A stretch of 64,000 bases of DNA, from positions 1 through 64,000 of IMG/VR virus record IMGVR_UViG_3300017751_003243; one strand, written 5' to 3'. Of the stretch, positions 34,591 to 56,933 are shown piece by piece. The notes beneath the pieces were generated by a model that did no database searches, was not told where the DNA came from, and saw nothing but the letters and a program-made list of their open reading frames with translations. Both the position numbers and the translations under genes were made by a program. This stretch comes from a virus. Positions within the stretch are counted from its first letter, which is position 1. Each line of letters starts with the position of its first letter.

Positions 34591-35461
34591 TATTGCTGAA
34601 CAAGATATCATATTCTTAAGTTATGATGAACCTAATGCAGAAAAAAATTATGTTGATCTGTGTAAGAAGGTGCCCTGGGCAAAACGTGTACACGGTGTAG
34701 ACGGTTCAGATGCGGCACACAAAGTCTGTGCAGAGCAATCAGAAACTAAACACTTTGTTACTGTAGACGGCGACACAATAATTGATCAAAAGTTTTTAGA
34801 CGTAGTACTTGATCTAGACGAACTAGGTGTAGATGATGACTATCAGTTTAGTTGGTGTGGTAACATTGACATCAACGGATTAAAATACGGCAACGGAAGT
34901 CTAAAGATGTGGACTAAAGACTTTGTTAGAAATATGAAAACACACGAAAACACAGACGGGTCAGACGATACACAGATAGAGTTTTGTTACTTTGACAACT
35001 ACTATCAGCTTAATCAAAACTATTCAACAAGCATTATTAGTTCAACACCACATCAGGCTTGGAGAGCAGGTTTCAGAGAAGGTGTTAAGATGTCACTAAA
35101 CAGAGGTGCAAAGGTACAGGATCTTGCAAACAATACTTGGTGGCAAAATTATCATAGATTACTTGTTTGGTTAAATGTTGGTGCAGATGTTGACAACGGA
35201 CTATATGCTATCATGGGTGCTAGAGATGGTTGCCAAAAGATATTAGCAACCGATTGGGATCATTCTGTAACAAGAGATTTTAAATGGCTTAATGAATATT
35301 GGAACGAGATTAAAGACTATCCTGTAGAACAAATGATTGCCGAGTATGGCGAAGTATTACAAGAGCAAGGATTACCTATAAGTAAAGTTGCACTAGATGA
35401 GGAGCAAAGTAAATTCTTTAAAACTGTTTATGTAAACAGTGATAGAGTACTAGGTAGGTAA
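34580..35461 (+). CDS. Glycosyltransferase-like protein with DGD motif (paralog of 43125)
   Basis: A 293-residue protein whose first ~65 residues match the protein at 43125-43820: (I)FLSYDEPNAE ... RVHGVDG ... AH ... FVTVDGDTII. The D-G-D after a hydrophobic strand is typical of the metal site in GT-A nucleotide-sugar transferases. The central region (STPHQAWRAGFREGVKMS) is also shared with the paralog. The C-terminal third differs. It is immediately followed, with a 1-base overlap, by a radical SAM gene, as the paralog is. I infer a sugar-transfer role, but the family is not one I can name. Confidence 0.5.
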   Translation: MKINIAEQDIIFLSYDEPNAEKNYVDLCKKVPWAKRVHGVDGSDAAHKVCAEQSETKHFVTVDGDTIIDQKFLDVVLDLDELGVDDDYQFSWCGNIDINGLKYGNGSLKMWTKDFVRNMKTHENTDGSDDTQIEFCYFDNYYQLNQNYSTSIISSTPHQAWRAGFREGVKMSLNRGAKVQDLANNTWWQNYHRLLVWLNVGADVDNGLYAIMGARDGCQKILATDWDHSVTRDFKWLNEYWNEIKDYPVEQMIAEYGEVLQEQGLPISKVALDEEQSKFFKTVYVNSDRVLGR

Positions 35462-36837
35462 TGAGCGAACTAGAAAAAATTAAAAAATTAATGCCTGTGA
35501 TTGAGGAGCAAACATCTCCTACATTCTGCTTGGCCAAATGGCATCACACCACAATATATCTAGCAACAGGTGAAACGCATAGTTGTTATCACCCTGCTCC
35601 GCACCCTATACCATTAGAAGAACTAAAAGATAATCCAAGTGCATTACATAACACCATAGAAAAGAAAGACCAACGTAAGAAAATGTTATGTGGCGAAAAG
35701 CCAGACGGTTGTAATTACTGTTGGAAGATTGAAGCTATGGGTAAAGACTATGTAAGTGATAGACATATTAAAACAACAAGCATTTATAATGAAGAAAGAT
35801 TAGCGGAAATAAAACAAAAAGGGGCGGATTTTAATGTAAATCCGGAATACATTGAAATAAGTTTTAGTAATGAATGTAATTTTAAATGCGGATATTGTCA
35901 CCCTAAAGCATCTAGCAGATACTATAATGAAATAAAACAACACGGACCATACAGTATGTCTACTTCACATAGACAAGATATTGATTGGTTTAAGATTTAC
36001 AAGAAGGAAGAAGAGAATCCATACGTAGACGCATGGTGGAGATGGTGGCCTGAAGTAAGTAAGACACTAAACATATTGCGTATAACAGGTGGCGAACCTC
36101 TAATGCACAAGAGCTTATGGGAATTGTTTGATAAGCTAGAAGCAGATCCAAAACCACACATACAAATAGAAGTCAACAGTAACATGGGTGTTAAGCCCAA
36201 GCTAGTAGAAAAGTTAACTTCTACTGTTAAAAGATTAAAAGAAAAGAATTGTATTAAAAGTTTTAAACTGTATACAAGCATTGACACTTGGGGACCTAGG
36301 GCCGAATATGCTCGTACAGGACTAGATATAAAGTTATGGGAACAGAACTTAGATCACTATCTAAGTAACACAGGATGGCCTGTAACGTTTATGATTACAT
36401 TTAATATATTTGGTGTAACTAGTTTTAATTTATTATTAGAAAAAATACTAGAATGGCGACACAAATATAATAGTGATGACAATGCCACACAATGGCAACG
36501 TGTTAGATTTGATACTCCTCATTTGAAAGAGCCAATCATATATGACATGAACATATTACCCAAGGAAGAATTTATGCCGTATATGGAAAGTCACTTAAAA
36601 TATATGCACGACTATCAAGATGATCAAGACAGAACAAAGTTTAGTTCATTAGAAGTAGAAAAATTTAGACGTGTGGTTGACTATATGCGTACAACAAACA
36701 TTGAACCTGCTAAATTAGATCAAGGACGTAGAGATTTTTATCGTTGGTTTACAGAGTTCGATAAACGTAGAGACTGTAACTTAACTGAAACGTTTCCTGA
36801 ATTAAAAGGGTTCTATAATGAATGTTCTAAAACCTAA
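35461..36837 (+). CDS. Radical SAM protein, N-terminal SPASM-like type (group A)
   Basis: A 458-residue protein. The radical SAM core begins at CNFKCGYC (Cys139, Cys143, Cys146), which would bind the [4Fe-4S] cluster that cleaves S-adenosylmethionine. ITGGEPLMHKSLW is the GGEP motif. Unlike classical SPASM enzymes, the extra cysteine-bearing region is before the core: FCLAKW at 22-27, a SCYH segment, and GCNYCWKIEAMG. The C-terminus ends in the TFPELKGF motif shared with the other group A proteins (37738, 48953, 53361 and, more loosely, 54911). Such proteins occur in marine T4-like phages; their substrates are not known to me. Confidence 0.85.
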   Translation: MSELEKIKKLMPVIEEQTSPTFCLAKWHHTTIYLATGETHSCYHPAPHPIPLEELKDNPSALHNTIEKKDQRKKMLCGEKPDGCNYCWKIEAMGKDYVSDRHIKTTSIYNEERLAEIKQKGADFNVNPEYIEISFSNECNFKCGYCHPKASSRYYNEIKQHGPYSMSTSHRQDIDWFKIYKKEEENPYVDAWWRWWPEVSKTLNILRITGGEPLMHKSLWELFDKLEADPKPHIQIEVNSNMGVKPKLVEKLTSTVKRLKEKNCIKSFKLYTSIDTWGPRAEYARTGLDIKLWEQNLDHYLSNTGWPVTFMITFNIFGVTSFNLLLEKILEWRHKYNSDDNATQWQRVRFDTPHLKEPIIYDMNILPKEEFMPYMESHLKYMHDYQDDQDRTKFSSLEVEKFRRVVDYMRTTNIEPAKLDQGRRDFYRWFTEFDKRRDCNLTETFPELKGFYNECSKT

Positions 36838-37738
36838 GTACTACAAATACACACCTGGAGCAAATGATCAAGATAGGTTGTTTAAGGATTTACAAGAAGT
36901 ATTAGTAAATGACAACAATAAAAAGCCTCTGCATATTAATCAAAATGTAAAGAATACAGAGTTCTGGGTCAAACGTGGCAAGAGAGAATGCACACTAGTA
37001 TTGGGTGAAAGCTGGACATATGGTGAAAGCCTTGAAGGCCGTGTACAATCAGCATTAATGAAATGGGACTTAGATACACAGATAAGATACTGTTGGGGTA
37101 CACAGGTTGCTACACTACTGGACACAGATTACTATCAGTATGCTATACCAGGAAACAACAATTTTTATATCTTTGGCAACGTAGAAAGATTACTAAAATA
37201 TCTATCACCTCAATACGATAAAATATATTTGTTAGTACAAATGACAGAGCCAAGTAGAGAAGATATTGTTATCAACGAATTAGGTGATCATCCTATTGCT
37301 AGGTTATATGATATAAATTATGTAAGTGGCATGAGTGTTAAAGACTGGTGTGTTGAAAACGAACACATTTTTTACACACAATTAAACGATACTATTGCAA
37401 AGTTTAATAACGTAAAAGCCACTGCCTGGAAAAACTTTTGTACGCAACAAAATGAAAACTATTGGGGATTTACTATGATTAAAGAAACATGGATGGAATT
37501 TAGTGCTAGGATGTCTGGCTTTAAATTACAAAGTCCTGATTTTTATGTTGCGGCTTGGTTAAAGAACTTTGTAAGTGATTATCCTGTAGTTCAAGAAAAT
37601 AAATATTTCAATAAGCAATTAGACAAGATTGAAGCGTCAAATAACTTTTTAAAACAAAGCCAAGATCATTGTCCTCACCCTGTAGCGGCCGCACACAAGG
37701 TTTGGGGATATAATGTCTATACACTGATGGACAAGTAA
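36818..37738 (+). CDS. SGNH-hydrolase-like protein
   Basis: A 306-residue protein. LVLGESWTYGESL places a nucleophile-like Ser65 in the block I position of SGNH/GDSL hydrolases. Near the C-terminus DHCPHPVAAAHKVWG carries the D-x-x-H pattern of block V. It overlaps the upstream radical SAM gene by 20 bases and ends 1 base into the next one, so the two enzyme types are paired. SGNH proteins commonly add or remove acyl groups on sugars. That role here is inference. Confidence 0.65.
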   Translation: MNVLKPKYYKYTPGANDQDRLFKDLQEVLVNDNNKKPLHINQNVKNTEFWVKRGKRECTLVLGESWTYGESLEGRVQSALMKWDLDTQIRYCWGTQVATLLDTDYYQYAIPGNNNFYIFGNVERLLKYLSPQYDKIYLLVQMTEPSREDIVINELGDHPIARLYDINYVSGMSVKDWCVENEHIFYTQLNDTIAKFNNVKATAWKNFCTQQNENYWGFTMIKETWMEFSARMSGFKLQSPDFYVAAWLKNFVSDYPVVQENKYFNKQLDKIEASNNFLKQSQDHCPHPVAAAHKVWGYNVYTLMDK

Positions 37739-38913
37739 TGAGTAAGACACTTTGCATACTACCCTGGATTCATATGTACGTCAATGCTGACGGAAGTGTG
37801 TTACCTTGTTGCATAGGTGATTACAAACAGCCTTTAGGAAATACACACAATCGTAGCATAGAAGATATTTGGAACAGTCATGAATATAAAACATTAAGAA
37901 AGCAATTACTTAATGGAGAAAAGCCTAGTATATGTAATCAATGTTGGAAACATGAAGAAGCAGGTAACACTAGCTCACGCATGAGTAACAATAAACGTTT
38001 CAAAGAAGAATTAAAATTTATAGAAACAACTAACGAAGATGGTAGCTTAGATGAAATGAATCTACGTTACTTTGATGTGCGTTGGAGTAACATTTGTAAT
38101 TTTAAATGTAGAACGTGTAGTTCAACATATAGTTCTAGCTGGGCTCAAGAAGATAACTCAACAAAGTTTGCACCTGAAAAACCTGTTTATATATTTGCAG
38201 GAGGTAATAACAATGATAACCTGTATCAACAATTCAAACCTCATTTTAAAAACATAAAAGTATTTTACTTTGCAGGTGGCGAGCCGTTGCTTACTGATAA
38301 GCACTATGATATACTAGAACATTTAATTGAAACAGGAAATACTAAAGTAAGATTAGAATACAACTCAAACGTAAGTAAATTAAAATATAAAAAGAAAAGC
38401 ATTATAGATTTATGGAATCAGTTCGAAGACGTTCAAGTAAGTGCTAGTTTAGATAGTTACGGACCAAGAGCAGAATATATTAGAGCAGGAACTGATTGGG
38501 ATCTAATTACGACTAATTTAAAAGTAATACGTGAACAAGCACCTCATGTAAAAATAAGTTTTAACACAGTAGTAAGTATTTTTAATCTGTGTACACTAAC
38601 AGACTTCTTAAATGAAATACAAAACGTAGATCCTAATAGTGCTAGTATGTATAACATTGTTGATCCACATTACTATAGTGTAAACGCATTACCTGAAGAA
38701 TACAAGACTATTGCGTTAGAAAAGATACAAAAATATATGAATAGTAATCCAGGAAAATATAAGTGGCAACTAGAAGGTGTTGTACGTTATATTGAAAATA
38801 GTAAGTTTGATGAAAGTGCGTTAAAGCAGTTTAGAGCAAAGACTCAACACTATGACTTTATTAGAAATCAAAAATTTATTGAAACGTTTCCTGAACTTAA
38901 AAGTGTATTATAG
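37738..38913 (+). CDS. Radical SAM protein, N-terminal SPASM-like type (group A)
   Basis: A 391-residue protein. N-terminal Cys cluster: CILPWIH ... VLPCCIGD ... EDIWNS ... ICNQCWKHE, a layout usually seen C-terminally in SPASM domains. The core follows with CNFKCRTC (Cys120, 124, 127) and YFAGGEPLLTDKHY as GGEP motif. ASLDSYGPRAEYIRAG resembles the beta-strand after the motif in peptide- or sugar-acting relatives. It ends in ETFPELKSVL. It converges with the minus-strand SGNH gene, the two 3' ends overlapping by 17 bases. Confidence 0.87.
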   Translation: MSKTLCILPWIHMYVNADGSVLPCCIGDYKQPLGNTHNRSIEDIWNSHEYKTLRKQLLNGEKPSICNQCWKHEEAGNTSSRMSNNKRFKEELKFIETTNEDGSLDEMNLRYFDVRWSNICNFKCRTCSSTYSSSWAQEDNSTKFAPEKPVYIFAGGNNNDNLYQQFKPHFKNIKVFYFAGGEPLLTDKHYDILEHLIETGNTKVRLEYNSNVSKLKYKKKSIIDLWNQFEDVQVSASLDSYGPRAEYIRAGTDWDLITTNLKVIREQAPHVKISFNTVVSIFNLCTLTDFLNEIQNVDPNSASMYNIVDPHYYSVNALPEEYKTIALEKIQKYMNSNPGKYKWQLEGVVRYIENSKFDESALKQFRAKTQHYDFIRNQKFIETFPELKSVL

Positions 38914-39775
38914 GATCTGGTTTTTCATCAGGCTTTATATTAGTTTCGTAATAAAACATATCCAACCAACGTTGTTGCATATTAAACAAATGAAAATCCT
39001 TTTTATCATTACTTGCATCTCGCAATAGTTTGATCCATTTGTTTTGTGCTTCTTCTACTGCTCTATCAGTAGTGTCCTTCCAGTCGTGTTTAAATGTATC
39101 CTTTAGAAATACATAGTGTTCCATAGGACTAGGATGTCCGTCTTGAAAGTTTTTATGAACTGTTTTTCTATCTCTTTTAAATTTACTTTCAATATTATTG
39201 TTATATAATGTTTGATAAAAGCTAGGCAATATTTCTCCTAGACTAGGAGCATAGTATTTCATCATGTCATCTATTCTATGATTCTTATCCCGTGTTGCAC
39301 CAGACCACTGATCTGTTTGCTCTAGTATATCACACATTTGTAGAAAGTGATATTGTGTTTTATGTTTTAGCATTTCATGTCCTGCTTTTATAAATGCTAA
39401 ATCTCTTACGTATGCACCATACTCACTAAAGTAATCTCTTACAAATTCTTCTCTGTATTGTTTTTGTGAGTAAATATTACCTGGAGTCATCCAAGGTCCG
39501 TTTGGATCCTGCGGAACATATCTATCTTCTCTACAAACATTGGTCCATTGTACAATAACTAAATCTTCATGCGTAAAGTCATAAACAGCATCGGCCTGCA
39601 TAAGCATATTGAATATAAAGTGATTACCTGCACCACTTCTACCAAAGTTTACAAAAGTACAGTCTAGTTCTTGCCCTAGTGCGTTTGCCCAGGTTCCCCA
39701 CATATAGTGAGTAAAGCTACAACCAAACGTAAACAGTCTTTTTGGTTTGTTATGATATAATACTTTCTTACTCAT
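38897..39775 (-). CDS. SGNH-hydrolase-like protein
   Basis: A 292-residue protein on the minus strand. RLFTFGCSFTHYMWGTWANAL provides a GCS nucleophile motif (Ser20) and the start of block I. VNFGRSGAGNHFIFN gives the Gly and Asn of blocks II-III. QDGHPSPMEHYVFLK near the C-terminus is a D-x-H block V. It is downstream of the glycosyltransferase-like gene at 39768, overlapping by 8 bases, in a two-gene minus-strand unit. Confidence 0.7.
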   Translation of the reverse strand: MSKKVLYHNKPKRLFTFGCSFTHYMWGTWANALGQELDCTFVNFGRSGAGNHFIFNMLMQADAVYDFTHEDLVIVQWTNVCREDRYVPQDPNGPWMTPGNIYSQKQYREEFVRDYFSEYGAYVRDLAFIKAGHEMLKHKTQYHFLQMCDILEQTDQWSGATRDKNHRIDDMMKYYAPSLGEILPSFYQTLYNNNIESKFKRDRKTVHKNFQDGHPSPMEHYVFLKDTFKHDWKDTTDRAVEEAQNKWIKLLRDASNDKKDFHLFNMQQRWLDMFYYETNIKPDEKPDPIIHF

Positions 39776-41036
39776 CTGCTAGATCTCTCATTTTAAGTGC
39801 CACATTTTTAAACTTTTCTTTAGTATACTTACCTTCTAAAAGTGTTTTAAAGTTATGCACCAATACCTGTTCGTTTTTAAACTTCCATCGTATGTGTTGT
39901 TTTACAGTTGGTAATGTTCTAATGTAATCTATTTGTTTGCATACTTCTTTCCACAAAGCTCTCCAACGTTTTACAGGGTCATGGATATCATCAAAACTTA
40001 AATCAAACCAATCGTCATATAATTTATATCCGTAATCTACCATGCGTTTGTTAATGCCAGGTTGTCCCCATATAACAAAAGGTTGCATATGATATATGCT
40101 TCTAAAAGTTTTTTCACTCCAGAACAAACTAGTTCCATGCCAATCATTTACAAACGTTTCGTTTACTATTTGAAACAATGATTGATCATTTAGATCACTG
40201 TGTAATGCAGTTGCATGATTAGTTTTAAAATCTTCCGTGTCTACAATCAAAGGTAGATGTTTCTTAAAATTTTTTAATTGCTGAAAATTTACACCACTGT
40301 TTGGAAAAGGCATCTCAGTAAGATAATAATCTAAGTTCATACCTTTTAAACTTCCATGACTAACATACATATCTTTAAAATGTTTGCTGTTGAATATTTC
40401 CATAGCACTAAAAGTTCTGTGTGGTCTGTTTACCCTACTTAAACTTAATCCTAGTTTATTGAATTGAGGGTGATGGTATTTTAACTTTGTTCTTTTTACT
40501 GCGGTATTAATTCTTTTATCTACAATAGCATCAACGTCTATGTTCCCACTCAACTCGACTTCTGTTTGTCCAGCTGTGCCAAATATCATCTGTTCAAAGT
40601 TTAGATATGTAAACACGTTAATACTTGTTTTTATGTTATGTTCCATGTTATAACGCATGATGTTATCATTGTCTTTCATGTTACTGCTGGTAAAAAATAT
40701 CCTGCGTGGATCTATGTCATACTTTTTAGCCATCTTATATAGAATATCAAAATACGGTTCTCCGTAGATAGTGCTAAATCCTTCAGTACTTGCATCAAAA
40801 AGAAAGAAACATTTCTTATCTTCCTTCATTTGATTTTGGACTTTTTTCTTAACATAGGTAAAAAAGTCAGTATCAGGGTACCATTTTGGATAGCCAATTA
40901 GCACAGTAATAACAGTGATATCGTCATGTACTATTTCATTCGTTCTAAAAGCCTTCTCCAATTCTACTGTAGTCTGAGTAAACTCGGGATCTTGTACAAA
41001 AGAGTTGAATCTTAAGAAGCCACGTATACGTTTCAT
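39768..41036 (-). CDS. Glycosyltransferase-like protein
   Basis: A 422-residue protein, first gene of a minus-strand unit behind an exact TATAAATA. Around residues 290-345 the sequence NETFVNDWHGTSLFWSEKTFRSIY, QPFVIWGQPG, and YGYKLYDDWFDLSFDDI follows the pattern of the C-terminal donor-binding part of fucosyltransferase-like and other GT-B phage transferases (SEKTF ... PFI ... G ... GF). The N-terminus has no known motif. I infer a transferase; the sugar is unknown. Confidence 0.5.
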   Translation of the reverse strand: MKRIRGFLRFNSFVQDPEFTQTTVELEKAFRTNEIVHDDITVITVLIGYPKWYPDTDFFTYVKKKVQNQMKEDKKCFFLFDASTEGFSTIYGEPYFDILYKMAKKYDIDPRRIFFTSSNMKDNDNIMRYNMEHNIKTSINVFTYLNFEQMIFGTAGQTEVELSGNIDVDAIVDKRINTAVKRTKLKYHHPQFNKLGLSLSRVNRPHRTFSAMEIFNSKHFKDMYVSHGSLKGMNLDYYLTEMPFPNSGVNFQQLKNFKKHLPLIVDTEDFKTNHATALHSDLNDQSLFQIVNETFVNDWHGTSLFWSEKTFRSIYHMQPFVIWGQPGINKRMVDYGYKLYDDWFDLSFDDIHDPVKRWRALWKEVCKQIDYIRTLPTVKQHIRWKFKNEQVLVHNFKTLLEGKYTKEKFKNVALKMRDLADE

Positions 41037-41049
41037 ATTAATAATCTTC

Positions 41050-41057
41050 CATAAATA
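41050..41057 (+). promoter_or_regulatory. Late-promoter-like element CATAAATA (rightward)
   Basis: It lies in the 61-base gap between divergent genes. The predicted start is A at 41063, leaving a 35-base leader with AGGAG at 41087-41091 before the GTG at 41098. It heads the long operon 41098-53380. Confidence 0.65.
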
Positions 41058-41063
41058 TTACTA

Positions 41064-41071: not shown

Positions 41072-41097
41072 TACGCATTTAATGGTAGGAGATTAGT

Positions 41098-42240
41098 GTG
41101 AAGATTAGTTTTATCGGATTGGGTAAACTTGGTTTACCTTGTGCAGAAGCAGTAGCACAAAAAGGACATACAGTAAGCGGTTACGACATAGTAAACGTAA
41201 CTAGCGACACAATTAACGTAAAAGATAGCATAGCAGAAGCAGTAGCAGGTCAAGACATAGTGTTTGTTGCTGTACCAACACCACACGACCCAGCCTATGA
41301 TGGCAGAGCTCCTACGGCTCATTTAGAACCCAAAGACTTTTCATATGACATTGTAAAAGAGTGTTTAGAAGAAGCCAACAAGTTTATGACAAAGAATCAA
41401 CTGCTTGTTCTTATTAGTACAGTATTACCTGGCACAACACGTAGAGAATTTGTACCGTTAGTAAACAACACAAGATTTGTTTACAATCCATATCTTATTG
41501 CTATGGGTACAGTTGCTTGGGATATGATTAATCCTGAAATGATTATGATTGGAACCGAAGATGGAAGTGCTACAACTGATGCTAGAGAGTTAGTAAAATT
41601 TTATCAAAGCATTATGGAAAACAATCCACGTTACGAAATAGGTACTTGGGACGAATGTGAATGTATAAAAGTTTTCTACAACACATTTATTAGTACAAAG
41701 ATTGGACTAGTCAATATGATGCAGGACGTAGCACAGAAGCAAGGCAACATTAATGTTGATGTTGTAACAAGAGCTCTTTCAAAGTCAACAATGCGTATCA
41801 TTAGTAAAGCATATATGAAAGCAGGTATGGGCGATGGCGGTGCTTGTCACCCACGTGATAATATTGCTCTACGTTACATGGCACAAGAACTTGGACTAGG
41901 TTACGATTTATTTGATAGTGTAATGAATGCAAGAGAGAAACAAGCAGAAAACATGGCTATTGAAATATTAAAATACGGAAACAAGGTTCAGTTTAGTAGC
42001 GATAGTTATAAGCCAGGTGTTGATTATGTTGACGGTAGCTACAGTTTACTAGTACAACACTACATAAAAAAACATGGCGGTTATGTTGTAAAAGAAAAGC
42101 CAATGATCTATGTGTTGGTACATGAAGGAGATACAGTTCCTGATAACGTACCTGTGTTCGATCCTTGGAGAACATACAAAGGAACCAACGTAGTTTATTA
42201 TGGAAACACAAGGAAAAACAAAGGTATAATTTGTGAGTAA
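41098..42240 (+). CDS. Nucleotide-sugar dehydrogenase (UDP-glucose/GDP-mannose dehydrogenase family)
   Basis: A 380-residue protein. ISFIGLGKLGLPCAEAVA is the N-terminal NAD-binding G-x-G-x-x-G motif. The middle has the family's KVFYNTFIS helix. GDGGACHPRDN places the thiol nucleophile at Cys250, the residue that forms the thiohemiacetal during oxidation of the sugar C6 alcohol to a uronic acid. The start is GTG, because the only nearby ATG (41082) runs into a stop after four codons; AGGAG lies six bases upstream of the GTG. The exact sugar is not known. A shorter relative is at 46380. Confidence 0.8.
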   Translation: MKISFIGLGKLGLPCAEAVAQKGHTVSGYDIVNVTSDTINVKDSIAEAVAGQDIVFVAVPTPHDPAYDGRAPTAHLEPKDFSYDIVKECLEEANKFMTKNQLLVLISTVLPGTTRREFVPLVNNTRFVYNPYLIAMGTVAWDMINPEMIMIGTEDGSATTDARELVKFYQSIMENNPRYEIGTWDECECIKVFYNTFISTKIGLVNMMQDVAQKQGNINVDVVTRALSKSTMRIISKAYMKAGMGDGGACHPRDNIALRYMAQELGLGYDLFDSVMNAREKQAENMAIEILKYGNKVQFSSDSYKPGVDYVDGSYSLLVQHYIKKHGGYVVKEKPMIYVLVHEGDTVPDNVPVFDPWRTYKGTNVVYYGNTRKNKGIICE

Positions 42241-43132
42241 AATACTAATAGCAGGTGATAGCAACGCACTAGGAGAATGGGGAACTATTGTTCCAGGACC
42301 TGCCTGTGCGAATCCTAATCACCCAGAAGTATTTCGTCCATGGAATAAAGAAAAATATTTAGAAGGCGATCATGCTAAACCCTTTCAGGTTGTTTGGCCA
42401 GGCTTTGGATATTACTTAGATCAAAAAGGACACGCAACAGTTAACTATGCGTTTGGCGGCTGTGGTAACTTTCAAGCATTATATAAAGTAGAAGAAGCAC
42501 TAGGACTAGCACCTTGCTTTACAAGTCCTGTATTTTACAATCCTGATTGTATTGTATGGATGATTTCAGAACCTTGTAGAGATTTAAAACAGCTATCAGA
42601 TGAAGCAGGGTTATATGACCTAGACAAGTACTACAAAGCATCAGATGATCTTGTACAAAATGCAAAAACAATTAAAGAAATAAATGACGGATTATTACAA
42701 CACGCATTAGATGGTGCACAAAAAATATATGAAGAAACCAACATACCTTGGGTAATAATAGAAGGTTGGACCAAAGTAGAATTAAAAGAACACCACACAT
42801 TTGTGAAACATATTCACAAAGACTGGATGGCCAAACTTATTAATAGACCTGTACCAATGTTTAGTAGTTGGCAGACTATAGATAATATTAGAAGGCGTAG
42901 ACCTGACCTAACTGAAAGTGCGTCAGAAAGTTTACGTTTATTTCAACGACAAAAACCAGAGCTAGGTATTCCAGATATACCAGAAGGCCCTGACAATGAA
43001 TTTAAAAGAATAGTTGATGATTACGAAGAAGTAATTAAGATTATGAATGAAAGTCCGTTGTTTCCTGATAACTGTCACCCAGATAGAACTTTACAGGAGC
43101 AACTGGCGTACGAGCTAGAACTTTATGTATGA
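42233..43132 (+). CDS. SGNH-hydrolase-like protein
   Basis: Starts at GTG, overlapping the dehydrogenase by 8 bases. The 299-residue product begins KILIAGDSNALGEWG, the GDS motif with nucleophile-like Ser10. FGGCGNFQALY gives the glycine/Asn block, and the C-terminal PDNCHPDRTLQEQLAYEL is block V with His. It is the third SGNH-type protein in the window, with different middle sequence from the others. The role is probably esterase or acyl transfer on a carbohydrate, by inference. Confidence 0.65.
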   Translation: MSKILIAGDSNALGEWGTIVPGPACANPNHPEVFRPWNKEKYLEGDHAKPFQVVWPGFGYYLDQKGHATVNYAFGGCGNFQALYKVEEALGLAPCFTSPVFYNPDCIVWMISEPCRDLKQLSDEAGLYDLDKYYKASDDLVQNAKTIKEINDGLLQHALDGAQKIYEETNIPWVIIEGWTKVELKEHHTFVKHIHKDWMAKLINRPVPMFSSWQTIDNIRRRRPDLTESASESLRLFQRQKPELGIPDIPEGPDNEFKRIVDDYEEVIKIMNESPLFPDNCHPDRTLQEQLAYELELYV

Positions 43133-43820
43133 TGCAGTTTTTATAAGTTATAATGAACCTGACGCAGATGAAAGATATAAACGTTTACTAGAACGTTATC
43201 CTAATACAAAGAGAGTTCACGGTGTAAAAGGAATACACCAAGCACACATCAAGGCCGCAAAGAAATGTCATACAAAGATGTTTTGGGTCATTGACGGTGA
43301 TGCAGACTTATTACCAGAATTCAATTTAGATCATAAAGTAAGTGATTATGATTTAGATTGTGTCCATGTTTGGCGTAGCCAGAATCCTATCAACAATTTA
43401 GTTTACGGGTATGGGGGTGTTAAACTCCTACCAAGACGACTCACCATGAACGTAGACGTTAGCAGTACTGATATGACTACCAGTATAAGTGATAGATTCA
43501 AGGCTATGCCAATCGTGAGTAACATCACTAGTTTTAACACAGATGAGTTTAGTACTTGGAAAAGTGCTTTTAGAGAATGTGTTAAGTTATCTAGCAAAGT
43601 AATACAAGGACAAGAAAATGAAGAAACAGAACAACGACTCAACGCATGGTGTACAAAAGGAGAAGAAAAAGAGTTCGGACTATTTTGTATACGAGGTGCT
43701 AGGAGCGGTCGTGACTTTGGTCATACTAATAGGACTGCACCTAGCTTACTAGCAAAAATAAATGATTTTGATTGGTTACAAGAACGTTTCCATATGGACG
43801 AGATGAATGATACCATTTAA
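43125..43820 (+). CDS. Glycosyltransferase-like protein with DGD motif (paralog of 34580)
   Basis: A 231-residue protein matching the one at 34580 in its N-terminal half: FISYNEPDADERY ... RVHGVKG ... AHIKAA ... FWVIDGDADLL. The D-G-D would be the metal-binding motif. A central TWKSAFRECVKLSS corresponds to the AWRAGFREGVKMS of the paralog. It lacks the long C-terminal region of that paralog and so is about 60 residues shorter. It overlaps a radical SAM gene by 14 bases at its 3' end, the same pairing seen at 34580/35461. Confidence 0.5.
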   Translation: MYDAVFISYNEPDADERYKRLLERYPNTKRVHGVKGIHQAHIKAAKKCHTKMFWVIDGDADLLPEFNLDHKVSDYDLDCVHVWRSQNPINNLVYGYGGVKLLPRRLTMNVDVSSTDMTTSISDRFKAMPIVSNITSFNTDEFSTWKSAFRECVKLSSKVIQGQENEETEQRLNAWCTKGEEKEFGLFCIRGARSGRDFGHTNRTAPSLLAKINDFDWLQERFHMDEMNDTI

Positions 43821-48120: not shown

Positions 48121-48956
48121 AAGTAAGGGTAGGAGTTAGAGGTAGTGAACTAGCATTGTCAATGGCAGAAATAGTAACTAGAAAATTAGAACAACTAAAC
48201 TGTACTGTAGAAATTGTTCCAATCAAATCAGATGGAGATATCCACGAAGATAAAGTTATTGCTGATATAGGTGGCAAAGGAGTGTTTTGTAAACGCATAG
48301 AAGATGAATTGTACAATGGTGCTGTTGATGTAGCTGTACACAGCACAAAGGACTTACCAACTGTAATGCCAAAAGAGTTAATACTTGCGGCAGTATTAAA
48401 ACGTAACGATCCAAGAGATTGTTACTTGGGTAAATTCTTTCCAGGTGCAAGAGTAGGAACAGGTAGTCCAAGAAGAATAGCACAACTTAAAAATAACTTT
48501 AAGGTAGACTTTGAGATAAAACATATCAGAGGAAATATTGCAACACGCATTAAGAAATTAAATGACGGTGATTATGATGCCATTATTTTGGCAAGAGCAG
48601 GACTTGAAATACTAGGATTAGAAAAATATATAACACATACATTTGACTTTGATAAAATGTTACCAGCGGTTGGACAAGGTGTTATTGCTGTACAGACACG
48701 TACTATGAGCCCTTACACAGCTCTAGTAAGGCAAATAAACCACTTGGATACATTTTATAGTGTATTAGCAGAACGTACAGCATTGAAGTTCTTAGACGGT
48801 GATTGTCATAGTGCAGTAGGAGTACTTGCACAGGTAGTAGGAGATTGTATTACACTAAAAGGAATCAACTACGAAAACATGAAACAGTCTACAGTTACAG
48901 GAAAGATATTGGAATATAAACAAATAGGTGAACAAGTAGGATTAGCAATAAAATGA
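48117..48956 (+). CDS. hemC: Porphobilinogen deaminase / hydroxymethylbilane synthase (HemC)
   Basis: It joins four porphobilinogens into hydroxymethylbilane. Family motifs are clear: VRGSELALSMAE (N-terminal Arg), KSDGDIHEDK, IGGKGVFCKRIEDEL, AVHSTKDLP with catalytic Asp79, GTGSPRRIAQL, IRGNIATRI and LARAGLEILGL. FLDGDCHSAVG carries Cys230, the attachment point of the dipyrromethane cofactor. At 279 aa it is shorter than the usual ~310, reduced in the C-terminal domain. All key residues are present, so it can be active. Its product goes to uroporphyrinogen III through HemD, which I do not see here, and then to HemE, encoded at 32433. Confidence 0.94.
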   Translation: MKVRVGVRGSELALSMAEIVTRKLEQLNCTVEIVPIKSDGDIHEDKVIADIGGKGVFCKRIEDELYNGAVDVAVHSTKDLPTVMPKELILAAVLKRNDPRDCYLGKFFPGARVGTGSPRRIAQLKNNFKVDFEIKHIRGNIATRIKKLNDGDYDAIILARAGLEILGLEKYITHTFDFDKMLPAVGQGVIAVQTRTMSPYTALVRQINHLDTFYSVLAERTALKFLDGDCHSAVGVLAQVVGDCITLKGINYENMKQSTVTGKILEYKQIGEQVGLAIK

Positions 48957-50257
48957 GTAAAACATTTTGCCCACTACCCTGGATACATTTAGCGACACGA
49001 CCTAACGGAGATGTTAGAGTTTGCTGTACTGCCAATGCCAGTGGTGCGGGTAAACAAGATGAAAAGACAGCAGGACTTGTTAAGAAAGATGGTATTGCTA
49101 TGAACCTACGTGACCATACAATAGAAGAAGTATGGAACAGCGAACACATGAGAAGAACAAGACTTCAAATGCTCAATGGCGAAATACCTGCTAGTTGTAC
49201 TAAATGCTTTAATGAAGAAGCAAAAGGTATTTCAAGTAAACGCCAATGGGAAAGTGCAGAATGGAAAGAACGTTTAGACTTTGATAAACTTATTGCAAGT
49301 ACAAAGGAAGATGGTACTGCACCTGTAAACATTCCTTACTTCGATTTACGTTTAGGTAACCTATGCCAATTGAAATGCGTTATGTGTAGTCCACATGATA
49401 GTTCAAGTTGGATTAAAGAATGGAAACTACAGTATCCGCAGTATAAGAACAAGGACCTAGTTGCTGACCAAGGTTGGGACGATCAATATGATTATACCTG
49501 GTATAAAAAAGGATCGTTTATAGATTCAATGAAAGACCAGGCACAGCATATACAAGAACTGTACTTTGCAGGCGGAGAACCGTTACTAATACCTGAACAT
49601 TATAAAATATTAGAGTTTATGGTCGACGAAGGATATGCAAAAAATTGCAACCTACGATATAATTCAAATGGATTAGAATTACCAGACAAGTTATTTAAAC
49701 TATGGGATCATTTTAAGGAAGTACGTTTTAATTTTAGCATTGACGCATATGGTGAACGTAATGATTATATACGTTACCCAAGCAAGTGGTCGGACGTTGA
49801 AACCAACTTAAAGAGATTAGATCAAAATACAAAGGATAATACGGTTATCAATATTGCCTGTGCAATACAATTATTAAACGTAGGTTACATAGATGAATTA
49901 GCTGAATGGAAAATGGATCAAGGCTTTAGCAAGATTAATCCATCAATGTTTGGCGGCGGAATCATAGGAACGCATTTGGTTTATTTGCCATCGTACCTAA
50001 ATGTACAAGTACTACCACAAGAAGCAAAACTATGGGCTAAACAAAAGATTGAAAATTTTATTGACAGACAGAAGTTTAATTTAGAATTTAATCAACACCC
50101 ATACGGTGCTCAACGTTGGAGAGGACTAATTAAATACATGATGCAAGATGATTGGGGAAACAAACTTCCTGCACTACAAGAATACTTAAAGATAACAGAT
50201 GAAAGACGTGAAACAGACTTTAGAAAAACATTTCCAGAGCTTGGGAGATATATGTAA
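48953..50257 (+). CDS. Radical SAM protein, N-terminal SPASM-like type (group A)
   Basis: A 434-residue protein. N-terminal Cys module: FCPLPWIHLA ... VRVCCTANASG ... EEVWNSEH ... SCTKCFNEEAKG. The core follows with CQLKCVMC (Cys138, 142, 145). YFAGGEPLLIPEHY is the GGEP motif, and FSIDAYGERNDYIRY follows. It ends in KTFPELGRYM, the group signature. It overlaps hemC by 4 bases and the aminotransferase gene by 1, linking tetrapyrrole and radical SAM genes in one transcript. Confidence 0.87.
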   Translation: MSKTFCPLPWIHLATRPNGDVRVCCTANASGAGKQDEKTAGLVKKDGIAMNLRDHTIEEVWNSEHMRRTRLQMLNGEIPASCTKCFNEEAKGISSKRQWESAEWKERLDFDKLIASTKEDGTAPVNIPYFDLRLGNLCQLKCVMCSPHDSSSWIKEWKLQYPQYKNKDLVADQGWDDQYDYTWYKKGSFIDSMKDQAQHIQELYFAGGEPLLIPEHYKILEFMVDEGYAKNCNLRYNSNGLELPDKLFKLWDHFKEVRFNFSIDAYGERNDYIRYPSKWSDVETNLKRLDQNTKDNTVINIACAIQLLNVGYIDELAEWKMDQGFSKINPSMFGGGIIGTHLVYLPSYLNVQVLPQEAKLWAKQKIENFIDRQKFNLEFNQHPYGAQRWRGLIKYMMQDDWGNKLPALQEYLKITDERRETDFRKTFPELGRYM

Positions 50258-51378
50258 TGGAATATAAAGGACTAATACTAGGACAACAGACTGACGTAAG
50301 TGTAGACACTGAACACTGGAAGTTTGGCACAATTAAAGACGGAGTCAAGTTAATTGACAACCTTTTATATTATAGTGCGTTTAGTCTAGGATATGACGAC
50401 CATGGTATCATTGATAAAGTATGTACTAGAATGAAAGGATTCAAACACGAGACAGGTGACAGTTTGTTTTTTGGTCATTCAGGACCAGCTGTAAATTCAC
50501 CACACATTGATTTAGCAAATAGATTGTATAACATGACCGATGGATACAGACCTGTGTTTGCATTATCAGGAAGTGACGGAGTAGAAGTTGCTATCAAGTT
50601 AGCCTTTGCATATCATCAAAGATGTGGAAATACTAGAAAGAAAATAGTATCATTTGACGATGCGTATCATGGATCAACTTTACTGTCAATGAGTGTTGGA
50701 GATGTACACTTTCAAAGTGCATACTACGGAATGGATCCATATCAAAACGTAATTAAATTATCACGCAATAATTTAGAACAGGAAGTTGATTGGGACGATG
50801 TTGCTTGTATCGTTGTAGAAACTTGTCCACATGATCAAGATATATCACCTTATGGGTATGACGTTTGGAATAAAGTAAATGAGATACAAGCCAAACATGA
50901 TGTACTCGTAATCATAGATGATGTGTTTATGGGTGGCGGTAAAACAGGAGACTTCTTTGGTTGGAGTAAACAACCTGTTAAGCCTGATCTATTTGTAATG
51001 GGCAAGGCAATTACAGGAGGCTTCTTTCCGTTATCAATGGCTATGTTTAATGAGAAAGTACATGAAAAAATAAAAGACGGAAAGTGGTTACATGGACACA
51101 CATACAGTATGACCCTGTCAGGTGTATTGTGTATGGACGAATACTTAAACGTTTTAGAAAATTACAAGTATATGGATAACGTTAATAATGTTATAGAACT
51201 TGCAAGACAGAATTTATCAATCGATGGTTGGAACATCAGCGGAAACTTTGGCACTACTTTTATGATAAACAAAAGTGATAAGCATTTTAGGTTTATTGTA
51301 CCTATTAATGCAGACCAAGAATACTTTGATGCAATACCAGATACGTTAAAAGAAATGGAAAAGGTACACGGATTATGA
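50257..51378 (+). CDS. Class III PLP-dependent aminotransferase-like protein
   Basis: A 373-residue protein. The SGSDGVEVAIKLA motif and DDAYHGSTLLSMSVGD resemble class III aminotransferases of the BioA/acetylornithine type. IIDDVFMGGGKTG has the acidic pair (Asp221/222) facing the pyridine nitrogen of PLP, and MGKAITGGFF gives the Schiff-base Lys250. HGHTYSMTLSG corresponds to the HGPTF-type substrate-binding loop. The presence of hem genes raises glutamate-1-semialdehyde aminomutase (HemL), but the motifs fit BioA-like members better. The real substrate, probably an amino or keto sugar or an amino acid, is unknown. Confidence 0.75.
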   Translation: MEYKGLILGQQTDVSVDTEHWKFGTIKDGVKLIDNLLYYSAFSLGYDDHGIIDKVCTRMKGFKHETGDSLFFGHSGPAVNSPHIDLANRLYNMTDGYRPVFALSGSDGVEVAIKLAFAYHQRCGNTRKKIVSFDDAYHGSTLLSMSVGDVHFQSAYYGMDPYQNVIKLSRNNLEQEVDWDDVACIVVETCPHDQDISPYGYDVWNKVNEIQAKHDVLVIIDDVFMGGGKTGDFFGWSKQPVKPDLFVMGKAITGGFFPLSMAMFNEKVHEKIKDGKWLHGHTYSMTLSGVLCMDEYLNVLENYKYMDNVNNVIELARQNLSIDGWNISGNFGTTFMINKSDKHFRFIVPINADQEYFDAIPDTLKEMEKVHGL

Positions 51379-51899
51379 GAGTAGGAATCACAGGACATTT
51401 GTCAGGACTAGGTAAAGAACTTTATACACGCATACCAGATAGTATAGGATTTGACTTAGGCAGTCATCATGACATAAAAAATCCTGATCCTTGGATTGAC
51501 GCCTTATTAAGTTGTGACGTTTTTATTAACAATGCGTATGATGGATTTCATCAAGCTAATATGTTAGAAAAAGTTTTTTTAAAGTGGATGAATGAGGATA
51601 AAACAATTATAAACATTAGCAGTACTGCTTCTGAAATAAAACATATAAATTATCAAATGGGATTTTATCCTATACATAAAAAAGCACTAGACGAAGCCTG
51701 CATGAGATTACAACACATAGAGAAAAAGTGTAGAGTAGTAAATATTAAAATAGGTTGGATGGACACGCCTATGACAGAAGGATTTGATACAGCTAAATTG
51801 CCCGTTGATGGTGTAGCCACAAAGATTATAGATGTAATGAATGATAAAGATATAACATCAATAACAATAGAAGGTCCATGGCAAAAGTGGGATTACTAA
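51375..51899 (+). CDS. Short-chain dehydrogenase/reductase-like protein
   Basis: A 174-residue protein. RVGITGHLSGLGKELY matches the TGxxxGxG cofactor motif. The INNAYDG segment corresponds to NNAG, and NISSTAS supplies the catalytic-type Ser. YPIHKKALDEA supplies the Y-x-x-x-K pair. It is shorter than usual (about 240-250), lacking most of the C-terminal substrate region. It follows the aminotransferase with a 4-base overlap and is next to a radical SAM gene, with a second SDR protein on the other side. Confidence 0.75.
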   Translation: MRVGITGHLSGLGKELYTRIPDSIGFDLGSHHDIKNPDPWIDALLSCDVFINNAYDGFHQANMLEKVFLKWMNEDKTIINISSTASEIKHINYQMGFYPIHKKALDEACMRLQHIEKKCRVVNIKIGWMDTPMTEGFDTAKLPVDGVATKIIDVMNDKDITSITIEGPWQKWDY

Positions 51900-52832
51900 A
51901 TGAAACTAGTATACAAGGACATTACAAAAAACGATTGGTTCTTAGTTAGTTGGACACTATCTAATAAGTGTAACTATCGTTGTGAGTACTGCCCCGACAT
52001 ACTACACAATGGTAGCACAGGACAACCACGTTGGGAAACTGTAGAACGTTTTATAAAAAATTTAAAAGTAAACAAGGATATCTGTTTTAGAATAAGTGGT
52101 GGTGAACCTACGTATTGGAAACACTTTATAGACATGGCAAAGTGTGCCAAGGAGCAAGGACATAAGTTTACATTTGTAAGTAATGGAAGTCAAAAGCCAG
52201 AGTACTTCAAACGTATTGCACCCTATACAGATGCTATGATGTTAAGCTATCATAAAGCATACGCAGATCCAGAACATTTTATAAAAGTAATAAATGAAAG
52301 CGGAATCAATACAGTTGTAAACATGATGTTATTGCCAACAGACTTTGAAGAAGCATTTAAGATATCAGAACTAATTTATAGCAATACAGATATAGCAAGT
52401 ATTGAGCCTAAAGTTATTGTAGATAAAACATCTAGTGAAAGTATTACAAATGAAGTTGTTACATATACACAGCAACAAAAGGATACAATTAAGAATTGGC
52501 CCTTTAGTAGAGATATACATTTCGGAGATGTACACAGAGGCGAAATGCAATTACAATACAATGACTGGTTCAAGGATAGCAAAGACGTAGACGCTAATCA
52601 ACTAATACTAGAAGGTAAGAACAAATTTGTAGGTTGGAAATGTTGGGCAGGTGTTGACGGAGTAAATATAGATATGTGGGGCAATATGTATAGAGCAGAC
52701 TGTCAGTTCGGTGGAGCAATAGGTAATTTAGAAAGATACAAGTTGCCAACAGAACCTATAGTATGTGGTAAAAGCATTTGCAGTTGTCTAAGCGACATAT
52801 ACATTAAGAAAGAACAAGTAGCAGAACTATGA
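51900..52832 (+). CDS. Radical SAM protein (group C)
   Basis: A 310-residue protein. CNYRCEYC at Cys24, 28, 31 is the cluster motif and FRISGGEPTYWKHFIDM the GGEP motif. The opening MKLVYKDITK and the later FVGWKCWAG match the protein at 43807, while the C-terminal region has KCWAG, ADC and the cluster VCGKSICSC, likely auxiliary-cluster ligands. It lies between two short SDR genes (51375, 52829), a radical SAM-SDR sandwich, all in close coupling. Confidence 0.85.
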   Translation: MKLVYKDITKNDWFLVSWTLSNKCNYRCEYCPDILHNGSTGQPRWETVERFIKNLKVNKDICFRISGGEPTYWKHFIDMAKCAKEQGHKFTFVSNGSQKPEYFKRIAPYTDAMMLSYHKAYADPEHFIKVINESGINTVVNMMLLPTDFEEAFKISELIYSNTDIASIEPKVIVDKTSSESITNEVVTYTQQQKDTIKNWPFSRDIHFGDVHRGEMQLQYNDWFKDSKDVDANQLILEGKNKFVGWKCWAGVDGVNIDMWGNMYRADCQFGGAIGNLERYKLPTEPIVCGKSICSCLSDIYIKKEQVAEL

Positions 52833-53380
52833 GCAAAATATTAGTAACAGGAAATCCTAACTACGAAGGTTTATGCAAAGGTATCTATGAAGCATATAAT
52901 CATAATAGGGTAGAGTTCATTGGCAGATGGAATGACTGGGATCTAGGAGACTTTGAAAAAGTCGCCAACTATGCGAAAGACTTTGATGTATTTGTAAACA
53001 GTCAGTATGGTCCTGATGGAGAACAGGTAGATATATTAAATGCTGTATACGATAAGTTTGAAAGAGGACATATAATTAATATCAGCAGTACAACAAGTTT
53101 CTGGGGTGACGGTTATAGTCCGGAAGGGTATCTTGAAAACAAAACTGCACTTGATAAAAGAAGCAAAGAACTTTGTAAGAATGTATGTTGGGGTAATAGT
53201 AAAATACGTATGAGCAATATTGCTTTTGGTCAACTAAATTCTAAAACACAAAAATTAAAAGACGATAAACACAAAATTAGTTTACAACAAGCAGGGCAAC
53301 TTGTTAAGTGGGTAATTGATAGTCCTACTTACACCAACGTTCACTATATAGCACTTGATCCTATACAAACAGATCTTTAA
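52829..53380 (+). CDS. Short-chain dehydrogenase/reductase-like protein
   Basis: A 183-residue protein. ILVTGNPNYEGLCKGIY has the T-G start of the cofactor motif but the glycine spacing is degenerate. INISSTTSFWG carries the Ser, and YLENKTALDKRSKEL the Y-x-x-x-K. It is a divergent sister of the protein at 51375. It overlaps the radical SAM gene by 4 bases. Its 3' end converges on the minus-strand gene 53361, overlapping by 20 bases. Confidence 0.65.
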   Translation: MSKILVTGNPNYEGLCKGIYEAYNHNRVEFIGRWNDWDLGDFEKVANYAKDFDVFVNSQYGPDGEQVDILNAVYDKFERGHIINISSTTSFWGDGYSPEGYLENKTALDKRSKELCKNVCWGNSKIRMSNIAFGQLNSKTQKLKDDKHKISLQQAGQLVKWVIDSPTYTNVHYIALDPIQTDL

Positions 53381-54924: not shown

Positions 54925-55948
54925 AATACCCTGCTACTTCTGGTAAGTAATCTTTTATGTTTACGCCTCTGTGTTTATCTAACACTCCTATCCACTTTCT
55001 AAATTCGTCTTGCTTTTCTATGCTTGTTGGTTGTGACATCCAATAATCAAAATGCTTTATGTTATCCTTCATAGCCTGAGGTGCATTTTTAATATGTAAG
55101 CTATCAGGTGTCATTAATAAGTTATCAAATATTTCTAGGTCGTTAGCCTGTGCGTATTCTATGTAAGTGTCGTGATCTAGTACATTCATTATTTGTACTG
55201 TTGGTCCTAAACTTACATCAGCTACTTCTCTAAACTTGTTTAAGTTGTATTCGATAGTATCCCAATCACTGCCCCAACGTATGTAATCGTTTGTTTTACC
55301 TATACCGTCAATGCTAAAGTTCATGTTAACACGATCAAATCTTTTTAATTCGTTAAACACCTTAGGATTGAATAGTGTACCGTTAGTGTTAAATCTTACT
55401 TCCACTGAAGGGTCTAGTTTTCCTAAGAACTTGTTTAAGCCCTTGACCATCATAGGTTCACCACCTGTTAGGTATACTTCTCTTAGATTAGGATTACGTG
55501 CAAGTGTTTCGCCTTGTTCATCAGTATACCAATTATACAATCCGTAATCAAACCAACCCCATGGGCTTTCTTGACCTTTAGCTTTTAGCTCGTTGTGTTC
55601 TTCATACAAGCTACTTGAACTACCAGGATAGCACATAGTACAACGTAGGTTACATTGATTACCAAACCGTATGTCTAAATGGCTTATGCCTGGACCATAC
55701 TCTCTTGGTCTTTGACGCATACTTGGTTTACCTGCTAGTTCCATAAGCTCACATTTTTGACAAGCCTTTGGAAACTGATTGTTTGCTAATTGTTCTCTAG
55801 CCTTTGTAGGAGTTTCACTAGCTAACCATTCTTCAGGAGACATATCGTTTATGTTTTCTTTATTAGTCTTTTCTGTACTAATACAACACATACGGAACTC
55901 TCCGTCAGGACGTATCATTGCCTGATGTTCTAAATATTTACACTTCAC
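54911..55948 (-). CDS. Radical SAM protein, N-terminal SPASM-like type (group A)
   Basis: Starts at GTG (55948), with GAGG about 10 bases upstream. The 345-residue product has MKCKYLEHQAMI ... FRMCCIS ... CQKCELMELAG as N-terminal module, then CNLRCTMC (Cys99, 103, 106) and YLTGGEPMMVKGLNKF. FSIDGIGKTNDYIRWG follows. The C-terminal DYLPEVAGYYG is a looser form of the PEL ending. It overlaps the kinase-like gene by 14 bases downstream and the group B gene by 11 bases upstream. Confidence 0.85.
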   Translation of the reverse strand: MKCKYLEHQAMIRPDGEFRMCCISTEKTNKENINDMSPEEWLASETPTKAREQLANNQFPKACQKCELMELAGKPSMRQRPREYGPGISHLDIRFGNQCNLRCTMCYPGSSSSLYEEHNELKAKGQESPWGWFDYGLYNWYTDEQGETLARNPNLREVYLTGGEPMMVKGLNKFLGKLDPSVEVRFNTNGTLFNPKVFNELKRFDRVNMNFSIDGIGKTNDYIRWGSDWDTIEYNLNKFREVADVSLGPTVQIMNVLDHDTYIEYAQANDLEIFDNLLMTPDSLHIKNAPQAMKDNIKHFDYWMSQPTSIEKQDEFRKWIGVLDKHRGVNIKDYLPEVAGYYGIN

Positions 55949-56933
55949 CGCAAGTTACCTCACAAATTTTAAATCTCTTGTTCATAGGATCTGTTAATGT
56001 ATTACTTTCTAATATATCTGTTAGTGGCATATCGTTTACGTTTAACCATTTAATAGTGTTTATGTCTTTACCATACGGACTGTTTAGGTCTTTAGGATAT
56101 CTATCTGCTAGTGTATAGCAACATGGAAACACTTCGCCCATATGGCTTATTTGTATCTTGCCTTTTTTCTGCCACTTACAAGTAATACAACCTTTATCAA
56201 ATCCTTTTTCTAATAATCCTTCAACACGTTTTACGTTATCTAAATGTTTCTTTTCATATGTAATAGTACGTGCAGTATCCTTCTTACTAGCCTTAAACTG
56301 CTCCATAGCTGTATTTACTACACTATCTATAGCACTAAACGTATAACCGCCATTTATATCAAACGCACCAAAGCCCATGTCTTTGCTTAACTGTTCTGCT
56401 TCTTCTAGTTGGTGTGCATTATGCTTGAACACTAGCATACGCCAACGTGCAAGTCCACCTGCGTCTATGAATGCTTTTGCATTTTCCATAACCTTGTGCC
56501 ATTGTACATTACGTCTATACAGATGATTAGTATCCTCCAATCCGTCTATGCTAAAAACAACATGGGTTGGAAATGGAAAGGGTTTCAAACATTCTGCCAA
56601 CTCTGCAAAAAATTGAGGACCATTCATTCCACCGTTAGTATGTATATGTATTTCAGGCATCTTATAATTACGCAAATAATTTAAGCACTCAAATATATAA
56701 GGGTTACGTAGTGGATCTCCATACGCACCATTTAAAACAATCTTGTTTATATTTTCACATATCTCCTCTGTAAACAATTTCTTCCATGTATTAGGCTTCA
56801 TGTGTTCGAGAGGCATCTGTGGATTAACTTCTGTACCACCTATATTACGACTGCAATTCCCACACATAGCATTACAATAGCTCGTAAAGTCAACAGTTAT
56901 TGTATCTATGTCCTTTGGATTTAAATATGGCAT
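55938..56933 (-). CDS. Radical SAM/SPASM protein (group B)
   Basis: The start at 56933 gives a protein opening MPYLNPKDIDTITVDFTSYC, aligning with the paralog at 45391 (MYNLTDIRAIHLEVTSRC); an upstream ATG at 56999 would add 22 residues unlike the paralog. CNAMCGNC (Cys20, 24, 27) is the core cluster motif. Later MHTNGG, FSIDGLEDT and DAGGLARWRMLVF match 45391. C-terminal SPASM-like cysteines include GCITCKW, FPCCY and ICEVTCG. It is the first gene of a four-gene minus unit. Confidence 0.85.
   Translation of the reverse strand: MPYLNPKDIDTITVDFTSYCNAMCGNCSRNIGGTEVNPQMPLEHMKPNTWKKLFTEEICENINKIVLNGAYGDPLRNPYIFECLNYLRNYKMPEIHIHTNGGMNGPQFFAELAECLKPFPFPTHVVFSIDGLEDTNHLYRRNVQWHKVMENAKAFIDAGGLARWRMLVFKHNAHQLEEAEQLSKDMGFGAFDINGGYTFSAIDSVVNTAMEQFKASKKDTARTITYEKKHLDNVKRVEGLLEKGFDKGCITCKWQKKGKIQISHMGEVFPCCYTLADRYPKDLNSPYGKDINTIKWLNVNDMPLTDILESNTLTDPMNKRFKICEVTCGEV

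Follow-up and report, generated by a model that had tools for sequence, protein, structure and literature searches.

Radical SAM genes of the accessory block

The window analysed here is the whole stretch of 64,000 bases at positions 1–64,000 of an 83,020-base IMG/VR virus record (IMGVR_UViG_3300017751_003243), which represents an uncultured aquatic virus of bacteria. A block of accessory genes in the window carries nine radical S-adenosylmethionine (SAM) genes, whose open reading frames (ORFs) are all present between positions 35461 and 56999 (21.5 kb). The initial annotation had recognised them by a CxxxCxxC motif; because all nine scored 33.1–52.5 bits against a PF04055 gathering threshold of 29.5, this finding was not a motif accident. 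Membership was assigned by that score together with the motif; that the proteins use a [4Fe-4S] cluster to cleave SAM reductively is predicted from sequence.

The proposed division into three subfamilies proved to be real. The five group A proteins (A1–A5, numbered along the window; motifs CNFKCGYC, CNFKCRTC, CQLKCVMC, CNLKCRMC, and CNLRCTMC) all scored above the cut-off of N_Twi_rSAM (NF033640; 230–431 vs. 170 bits), a family with an N-terminal auxiliary Fe-S domain, and matched it over their full length, whereas group B (B1 and B2; CQAKCPMC and CNAMCGNC) and group C (C1 and C2; CNYNCSYC and CNYRCEYC) fell below it. The SPASM/twitch check placed the Pfam SPASM domain (PF13186) at the N-terminus in four of the five group A proteins and at the C-terminus in B2. 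N-terminal auxiliary cysteines C6, C82, and C85 were invariant in 24 sequences, and conserved C-terminal auxiliary cysteines were seen in the alignments of groups B and C. Profile searching aligned the N-terminal region of the group A proteins with the C-terminal part of BtrN, which would fit an auxiliary Fe-S domain that has been transposed. Each of A1–A5 fell in its own deep clade in the phylogenetic tree; thus, they are not recent tandem copies.

The same record contains, beyond the window, a tenth radical SAM gene, which is QueE-like (L001:8867-9763, minus strand; record positions 72166-73062). Its third cluster cysteine is apparently displaced by a long insertion (CNLQCSGF...KGCDSSYTW), and a FolE-like gene is located close to it (L001:10526-11212).

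A core triad shared with Bdellovibrionota

The GTDB genomes were scanned with a narrow A3 alignment, the 24-sequence alignment being too divergent, and A3 relatives were found mainly in Bdellovibrionota. In these loci, A3, B1, and C1 are adjacent, often together with a predicted glycosyltransferase (GTx) and a putative methyltransferase-like protein (MT) that also accompany them in the window, and Glycos_transf_2 genes lie beside the triad in some cases. The identity of A3 to Bdellovibrionota was 47–50%, and those of C1 and B1 to freshwater phages and Bdellovibrionota were 52–57% and 37–43%, respectively. Among 144 genomes of one class, clear orthologues by score were present in 15 (C1), 15 (B1), and 13 (A3), with a wide score gap dividing orthologues from paralogues in most records. 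All 13 A3-bearing genomes possessed both B1 and C1; the triad was contained within 3.6–6.7 kb on one contig in 11 of them and was split over more than one contig in the other two. The hypergeometric chance of this co-occurrence is approximately 1e-16, a value that treats the genomes as more independent than their relatedness allows.

In the trees of A3, B1, and C1, the marine phages formed their own clade and the freshwater phages were placed within or next to the bacterial sequences, suggesting that transfer took place more than once. Twelve host genomes were searched for the baseplate hub as a sign that the bacterial triads derive from prophages, and no match emerged; as a negative result, this is weak. 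Judged by these comparisons, A3, B1, and C1 are an ancient cassette conserved with GTx and the putative MT in marine phages, freshwater phages, and Bdellovibrionota chromosomes. Neither the triad nor its occurrence in both phages and Bdellovibrionota was found described in the part of the literature that was covered, and the triad, newly found here, is the one real surprise of an otherwise known kind of phage surface-glycan cluster.

The nine genes had initially been suggested to form one multi-step pathway. This is well supported for the core, because A3, B1, and C1 are shared with GTx and MT by distant freshwater phages and Bdellovibrionota; the six other radical SAM genes vary by lineage and may carry out other steps. 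No function is implied by the name of the curated family N_Twi_rSAM, and a triad with fixed partners gives the family a testable pathway. The triad also links the accessory blocks of large phages to the surface biology of Bdellovibrionota, a bacterial group with cultured members.

Gene number and order in related phages

Relatives were viral records found via the baseplate-hub gene or via the heme-type genes HemC and HemE. Seven to 12 radical SAM genes were present in G010, G016, G021, G022, G023, G032, G035, G037, G038, and G041 (a few of the genes scored under the Pfam threshold), and the largest relative (G047, 383 kb) had 14; none was seen in the long relatives G024, G026, and G028, records that may be fragments. 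The nine genes of the window are thus not unique, since counts of 7–14 are usual in close relatives, and the number had at first been overrated as exceptional. The search of cultured phages yielded only four weak matches to A3 and no match to C1. The cultured phage found to come closest was Vibrio phage K566 (L162), a jumbo phage with three annotated radical SAM genes and hypothetical neighbours.

The marine relatives carry orthologues of the nine genes in an unchanged order, at 46–95% identity and immediately after the tail fibres. This order runs from the tail fibres through two GT8-like genes, GTx1, A1, SGNH/GTy, a UDP-sugar dehydrogenase, GTx2, C1, B1, MT, A3, C2, and a short-chain dehydrogenase/reductase (SDR), followed on the opposite strand by A4, an APH-like gene, A5, and B2. 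A2 is lineage-variable, with a close orthologue in G010 and G008 only. The freshwater-type lineage (G016, G021, G022, and G023; so called after the contig sets, from which the environment was deduced) keeps the tail fibres, GT8a, GT8b, GTx1, GTx2, and MT as well as orthologues of B1, A3, and C1, among which other radical SAM genes are interspersed. The order tail fibres–GT8a–GT8b–GTx1–GTx2–MT with A3/B1/C1 is common to marine and freshwater phages.

Several further features of the related blocks were observed. PP-loop (QueC/TilS/LarE-like) genes recur in radical SAM blocks of phages and bacteria (L119:9372-10235, L124:7559-8230, L130:8202-8888, L143:6102-7211, and L144:7612-8718), with none in the block of the window. 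Contigs binned as Acidimicrobiaceae and Chloroflexi (L149 and L150) contain approximately 10 radical SAM genes in 21 kb, neighboured by FkbM, PhyH, aldo/keto reductase, nitroreductase, or aminotransferase genes, and could be misbinned phage. Between the APH-like gene and A4, G041 and G038 carry two beta-propeller-like proteins that are rich in repeats (414 and 379 aa; L128:5487-7863), the longer of which had no Pfam match.

The baseplate hub of the window was closest to those of PA5oct, Munch, and Erwinia jumbo phages (31–35% identity, one structural gene compared). The initial placement of the phage among marine T4-like phages is doubtful because the hub is nearest to jumbo phages and not to T4-like cyanophages, and because the relatives reach 383 kb, although a single gene is thin evidence. 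A single 4906-codon ORF (window 7798-22518, plus strand) lies between the baseplate and tail-fibre genes.

Predicted structures and partner genes

The AlphaFold2 (AF2) model of A3 had a predicted local distance difference test (pLDDT) score of 86 and matched radical SAM structures in Foldseek. It resembled the peptide enzymes CteB and SkfB and the sugar enzymes BlsE and DesII at similarly low TM-scores, so the structure alone cannot choose between a sugar and a peptide substrate.

GTx was the most constant partner outside the radical SAM genes. Its best Foldseek matches were glycosyltransferases, with GT-A enzymes at moderate TM-scores (0.33–0.46 of the query), and D57 and D59 of its DxD motif were invariant in phages and cells. 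We regard GTx as a GT-A glycosyltransferase whose fold is predicted at high model confidence, with sugar transfer likewise predicted from the model. MT conserves G59 W60, D84, D110, and INTSCEH, and had no PDB or Pfam match. Sequence profiles gave only insignificant matches for GTx and MT and no match for the SGNH-like proteins; GTy had no Pfam or PDB match and nothing from sequence profiles. KdsA was present in the window only among the phages compared, and the relatives carry both GT8-like genes without it; because KdsA separates these genes only here, it seems to have been inserted recently, and a gap of 180 nt comes after it. The features are collected in Table 1.

Table 1. Predicted genes in and around the radical SAM block (window coordinates; scores in bits, with model cut-offs after "vs.")
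Feature	Position	Strand	Evidence
GT8-like glycosyltransferase a (GT8a)	29805..30665	+	Family profile matches glycogenin, E 4e-5
KdsA, Kdo-8-phosphate synthase	30665..31438	+	TIGR01362 328.9 vs. 314
GT8-like glycosyltransferase b (GT8b)	31619..32461	+	Family profile, glycogenin match
HemE-like uroporphyrinogen decarboxylase	32433..33374	+	TIGR01464 257 vs. 303; WLMRQAGRY, FSDIL, NLAHG kept
GTx1, paralogue of GTx2, 293 aa	34580..35461	+	Same family
Radical SAM A1, N_Twi_rSAM, 458 aa	35461..36837	+	NF033640 318; PF04055 33.1; marine-relative orthologues 81-86% identity
SGNH-like protein 1	36818..37738	+	GxxN and DxxH signature (family alignment)
Radical SAM A2, N_Twi_rSAM, 391 aa	37738..38913	+	NF033640 396.5; PF13186 58.2, residues 6-70
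SGNH-like protein 2	38897..39775	-	Family alignment
GTy, conserved, tentatively glycosyltransferase-like	39768..41036	-	53-64% in marine relatives
Nucleoside diphosphate (NDP)-sugar dehydrogenase 1	41098..42240	+	TIGR03026 153 vs. 190
SGNH-like protein 3	42233..43132	+	Family alignment
GTx2, predicted GT-A-fold glycosyltransferase, 231 aa, overlaps C1 start	43125..43820	+	Invariant DxD; AF2 pLDDT 92; Foldseek
Radical SAM C1, 325 aa, C-terminal 4-Cys region, core triad	43807..44784	+	PF04055 51.5
Asp/Asn beta-hydroxylase-like 2-oxoglutarate (2OG) oxygenase	44774..45391	+	PF05118 25.7
Radical SAM B1, 330 aa, C-terminal auxiliary Cys, core triad	45391..46383	+	PF04055 37.2
NDP-sugar dehydrogenase 2 (short)	46380..47126	+	TIGR03026 121 vs. 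190
MT, putative methyltransferase-like, fold unconfirmed	47512..48120	+	Kept with triad in phages and cells
HemC, hydroxymethylbilane synthase	48117..48956	+	TIGR00212 270 vs. 164; KDLP, GDC kept (GDC, cofactor Cys)
Radical SAM A3, N_Twi_rSAM, 434 aa, core triad	48953..50257	+	NF033640 431; AF2 model; Foldseek
Class III aminotransferase	50257..51378	+	PF00202 153.8
SDR-like protein 1	51375..51899	+	NCBIfam SDR 28.9, weak
Radical SAM C2, 310 aa	51900..52832	+	PF04055 52.5
SDR-like protein 2, homologue of SDR-like protein 1	52829..53380	+	Same sequence cluster
Radical SAM A4, N_Twi_rSAM, 381 aa	53361..54506	-	NF033640 230; middle auxiliary CC -> DG (alignment)
Radical SAM A5, N_Twi_rSAM, 345 aa	54911..55948	-	NF033640 245; PF04055 51.2
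Radical SAM B2, 353 aa, C-terminal SPASM	55938..56999	-	PF04055 36.1; PF13186 24.9 at 274-350
Asp/Asn beta-hydroxylase-like 2OG oxygenase	56991..57710	+	PF05118 51.5
HAD phosphatase and sugar-1-P nucleotidyltransferase-like pair	59885..61163	+	TIGR01509, TIGR03992
TauD-family 2OG oxygenase	61153..61989	+	PF02668 92.3

Proposed function and alternatives

We favour, with a probability of roughly 0.57, the interpretation that the block is a phage-borne operon for glycan synthesis and tailoring, placed directly downstream of the tail-fibre genes; substrate, reaction types, and biological role are what we infer here. In the core cassette, A3, B1, and C1 would work with GTx and the putative methyltransferase. 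The radical SAM enzymes would most likely act by hydrogen abstraction on a nucleotide sugar or a glycan, with dehydrogenation, epimerisation, deoxygenation, or decarboxylation as the outcome; the product would then be placed on a surface glycan by the glycosyltransferases. The first-choice target would be an envelope polysaccharide of the host, changed during infection to block superinfection, and the second the phage's own fibres. The six other radical SAM enzymes, together with the NDP-sugar dehydrogenases, KdsA, and the SGNH, SDR, and 2OG oxygenase proteins, may provide lineage-specific decorating steps. If the product is indeed a glycan, the block would represent a multi-step radical pathway in phage–host surface conflict.

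The initial annotation had left open a modified glycan or a modified peptide or protein. A glycan is favoured because the neighbours include GTx, the GT8-like proteins, NDP-sugar dehydrogenases, KdsA, and the nucleotidyltransferase-like protein and because there is no room for a precursor gene; the sugar-acting enzymes BlsE, DesII, and BtrN are also among the Foldseek and profile neighbours. Three points weigh against a glycan operon: the top structural matches of A3 are the peptide maturases CteB and SkfB (TM-score of ~0.36), some Bdellovibrionota triads adjoin non-glycan genes (SppA-like, and transposase-like at L140), and the block revealed neither a polymerase or flippase nor any other complete polysaccharide pathway. 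A narrower proposal, on which the odds are somewhat unfavourable, is that A3, B1, and C1 with GTx and MT form an unreported cassette that makes one unusual sugar or glycan and has been exchanged between large aquatic phages and Bdellovibrionota; phage and predator would then share the same surface chemistry.

The radical SAM enzymes might instead modify proteins or peptides, such as the upstream tail fibres, with the glycosyltransferases glycosylating the same protein. SPASM/twitch radical SAM enzymes are largely peptide maturases, GTx also resembles polypeptide GalNAc-transferases in Foldseek, and the phages compared have the block after their tail-fibre genes, in addition to the CteB and SkfB matches of A3. 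However, the block is 99.3% coding, with overlapping genes and gaps of only 47, 180, and 61 nt; a scan of these gaps revealed no precursor-sized gene, the small ORF at 31401-31616 is not conserved, and the Bdellovibrionota triads have no tail genes alongside. We therefore consider protein modification unlikely, albeit worth keeping in view. Chance accumulation of unrelated single insertions in a hypervariable region would fit the differences of the six non-core genes between lineages and the deep divergence of the N_Twi members, but the gene order kept among marine relatives makes it improbable for the block, and the co-inheritance of the triad, adjacent in both phages and bacteria, already refutes it for the core.

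Two alternatives concern other products. Phage glycosyltransferases are able to act on DNA (literature cited in PMC12619734), and the QueE-like and FolE genes of the record, along with QueC-like PP-loop genes in related blocks, would suit the synthesis of a modified, glycosylated base that protects the phage DNA. Such hypermodification is nevertheless very improbable, given that the triad, GTx, and MT are found in bacterial chromosomes, that QueE and FolE lie ~15 kb from the last radical SAM gene and outside the block, and that this block lacks a PP-loop gene. Least probable is a tetrapyrrole (heme-type) pathway in which the radical SAM enzymes act with HemC and HemE, as the position of both genes inside the block and weak matches to the AhbD/NirJ models might imply. 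The AhbD/NirJ scores are far below the cut-offs; HemC and HemE are missing from the radical SAM-rich relatives G010, G016, and G021-G023 and from the bacterial triad loci, and the pair occurs in other phages without a detected radical SAM gene (L026, L028, and L034; HemC ~39% and HemE 67% identity). Because they are separable in this manner, HemC and HemE look like an independent auxiliary module, and tetrapyrrole synthesis was rejected as the main function. A porphobilinogen deaminase was reported earlier in one ecotype of pelagimyophages (PMC7029224).

Comparison with known systems

The closest described arrangement is the host recognition cluster of pelagimyophages, which contains GT8 glycosyltransferases and radical SAM cassettes and whose glycosyltransferases have been argued to alter the host O-chain (PMC7029224). 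Both are hypervariable blocks after the tail fibres with GT8, UDP-glucose dehydrogenase, and radical SAM genes; however, the pelagimyophages are T4-like SAR11 phages, whereas the window has a jumbo phage-like hub and a defined triad shared with Bdellovibrionota. Radical SAM and glycosyltransferase genes are also enriched in some marine viromes (PMC7150976).

At the level of enzyme families, all of group A belongs to N_Twi_rSAM, but here five divergent members occur in one block along with two other radical SAM groups. With the sugar-acting BlsE, DesII, and BtrN, group A has the radical SAM fold and a plausible chemistry in common, and its auxiliary Fe-S region can be compared with the one in BtrN; it differs in that its auxiliary domain is N-terminal, and the structural alignments are at 13–15% identity. 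The maturases of ribosomally synthesized and post-translationally modified peptides CteB, SkfB, and SuiB rank near the top of the Foldseek matches of A3, but the TM-score is low, the block has no precursor gene, and all NCBIfam maturase models scored far below their cut-offs for the nine proteins. The viperin family (NF038283) was the best NCBIfam match of group C, but with 39.7 and 49.6 bits vs. a cut-off of 180, these proteins are not members, and a role as viperin-like antiviral enzymes was rejected.

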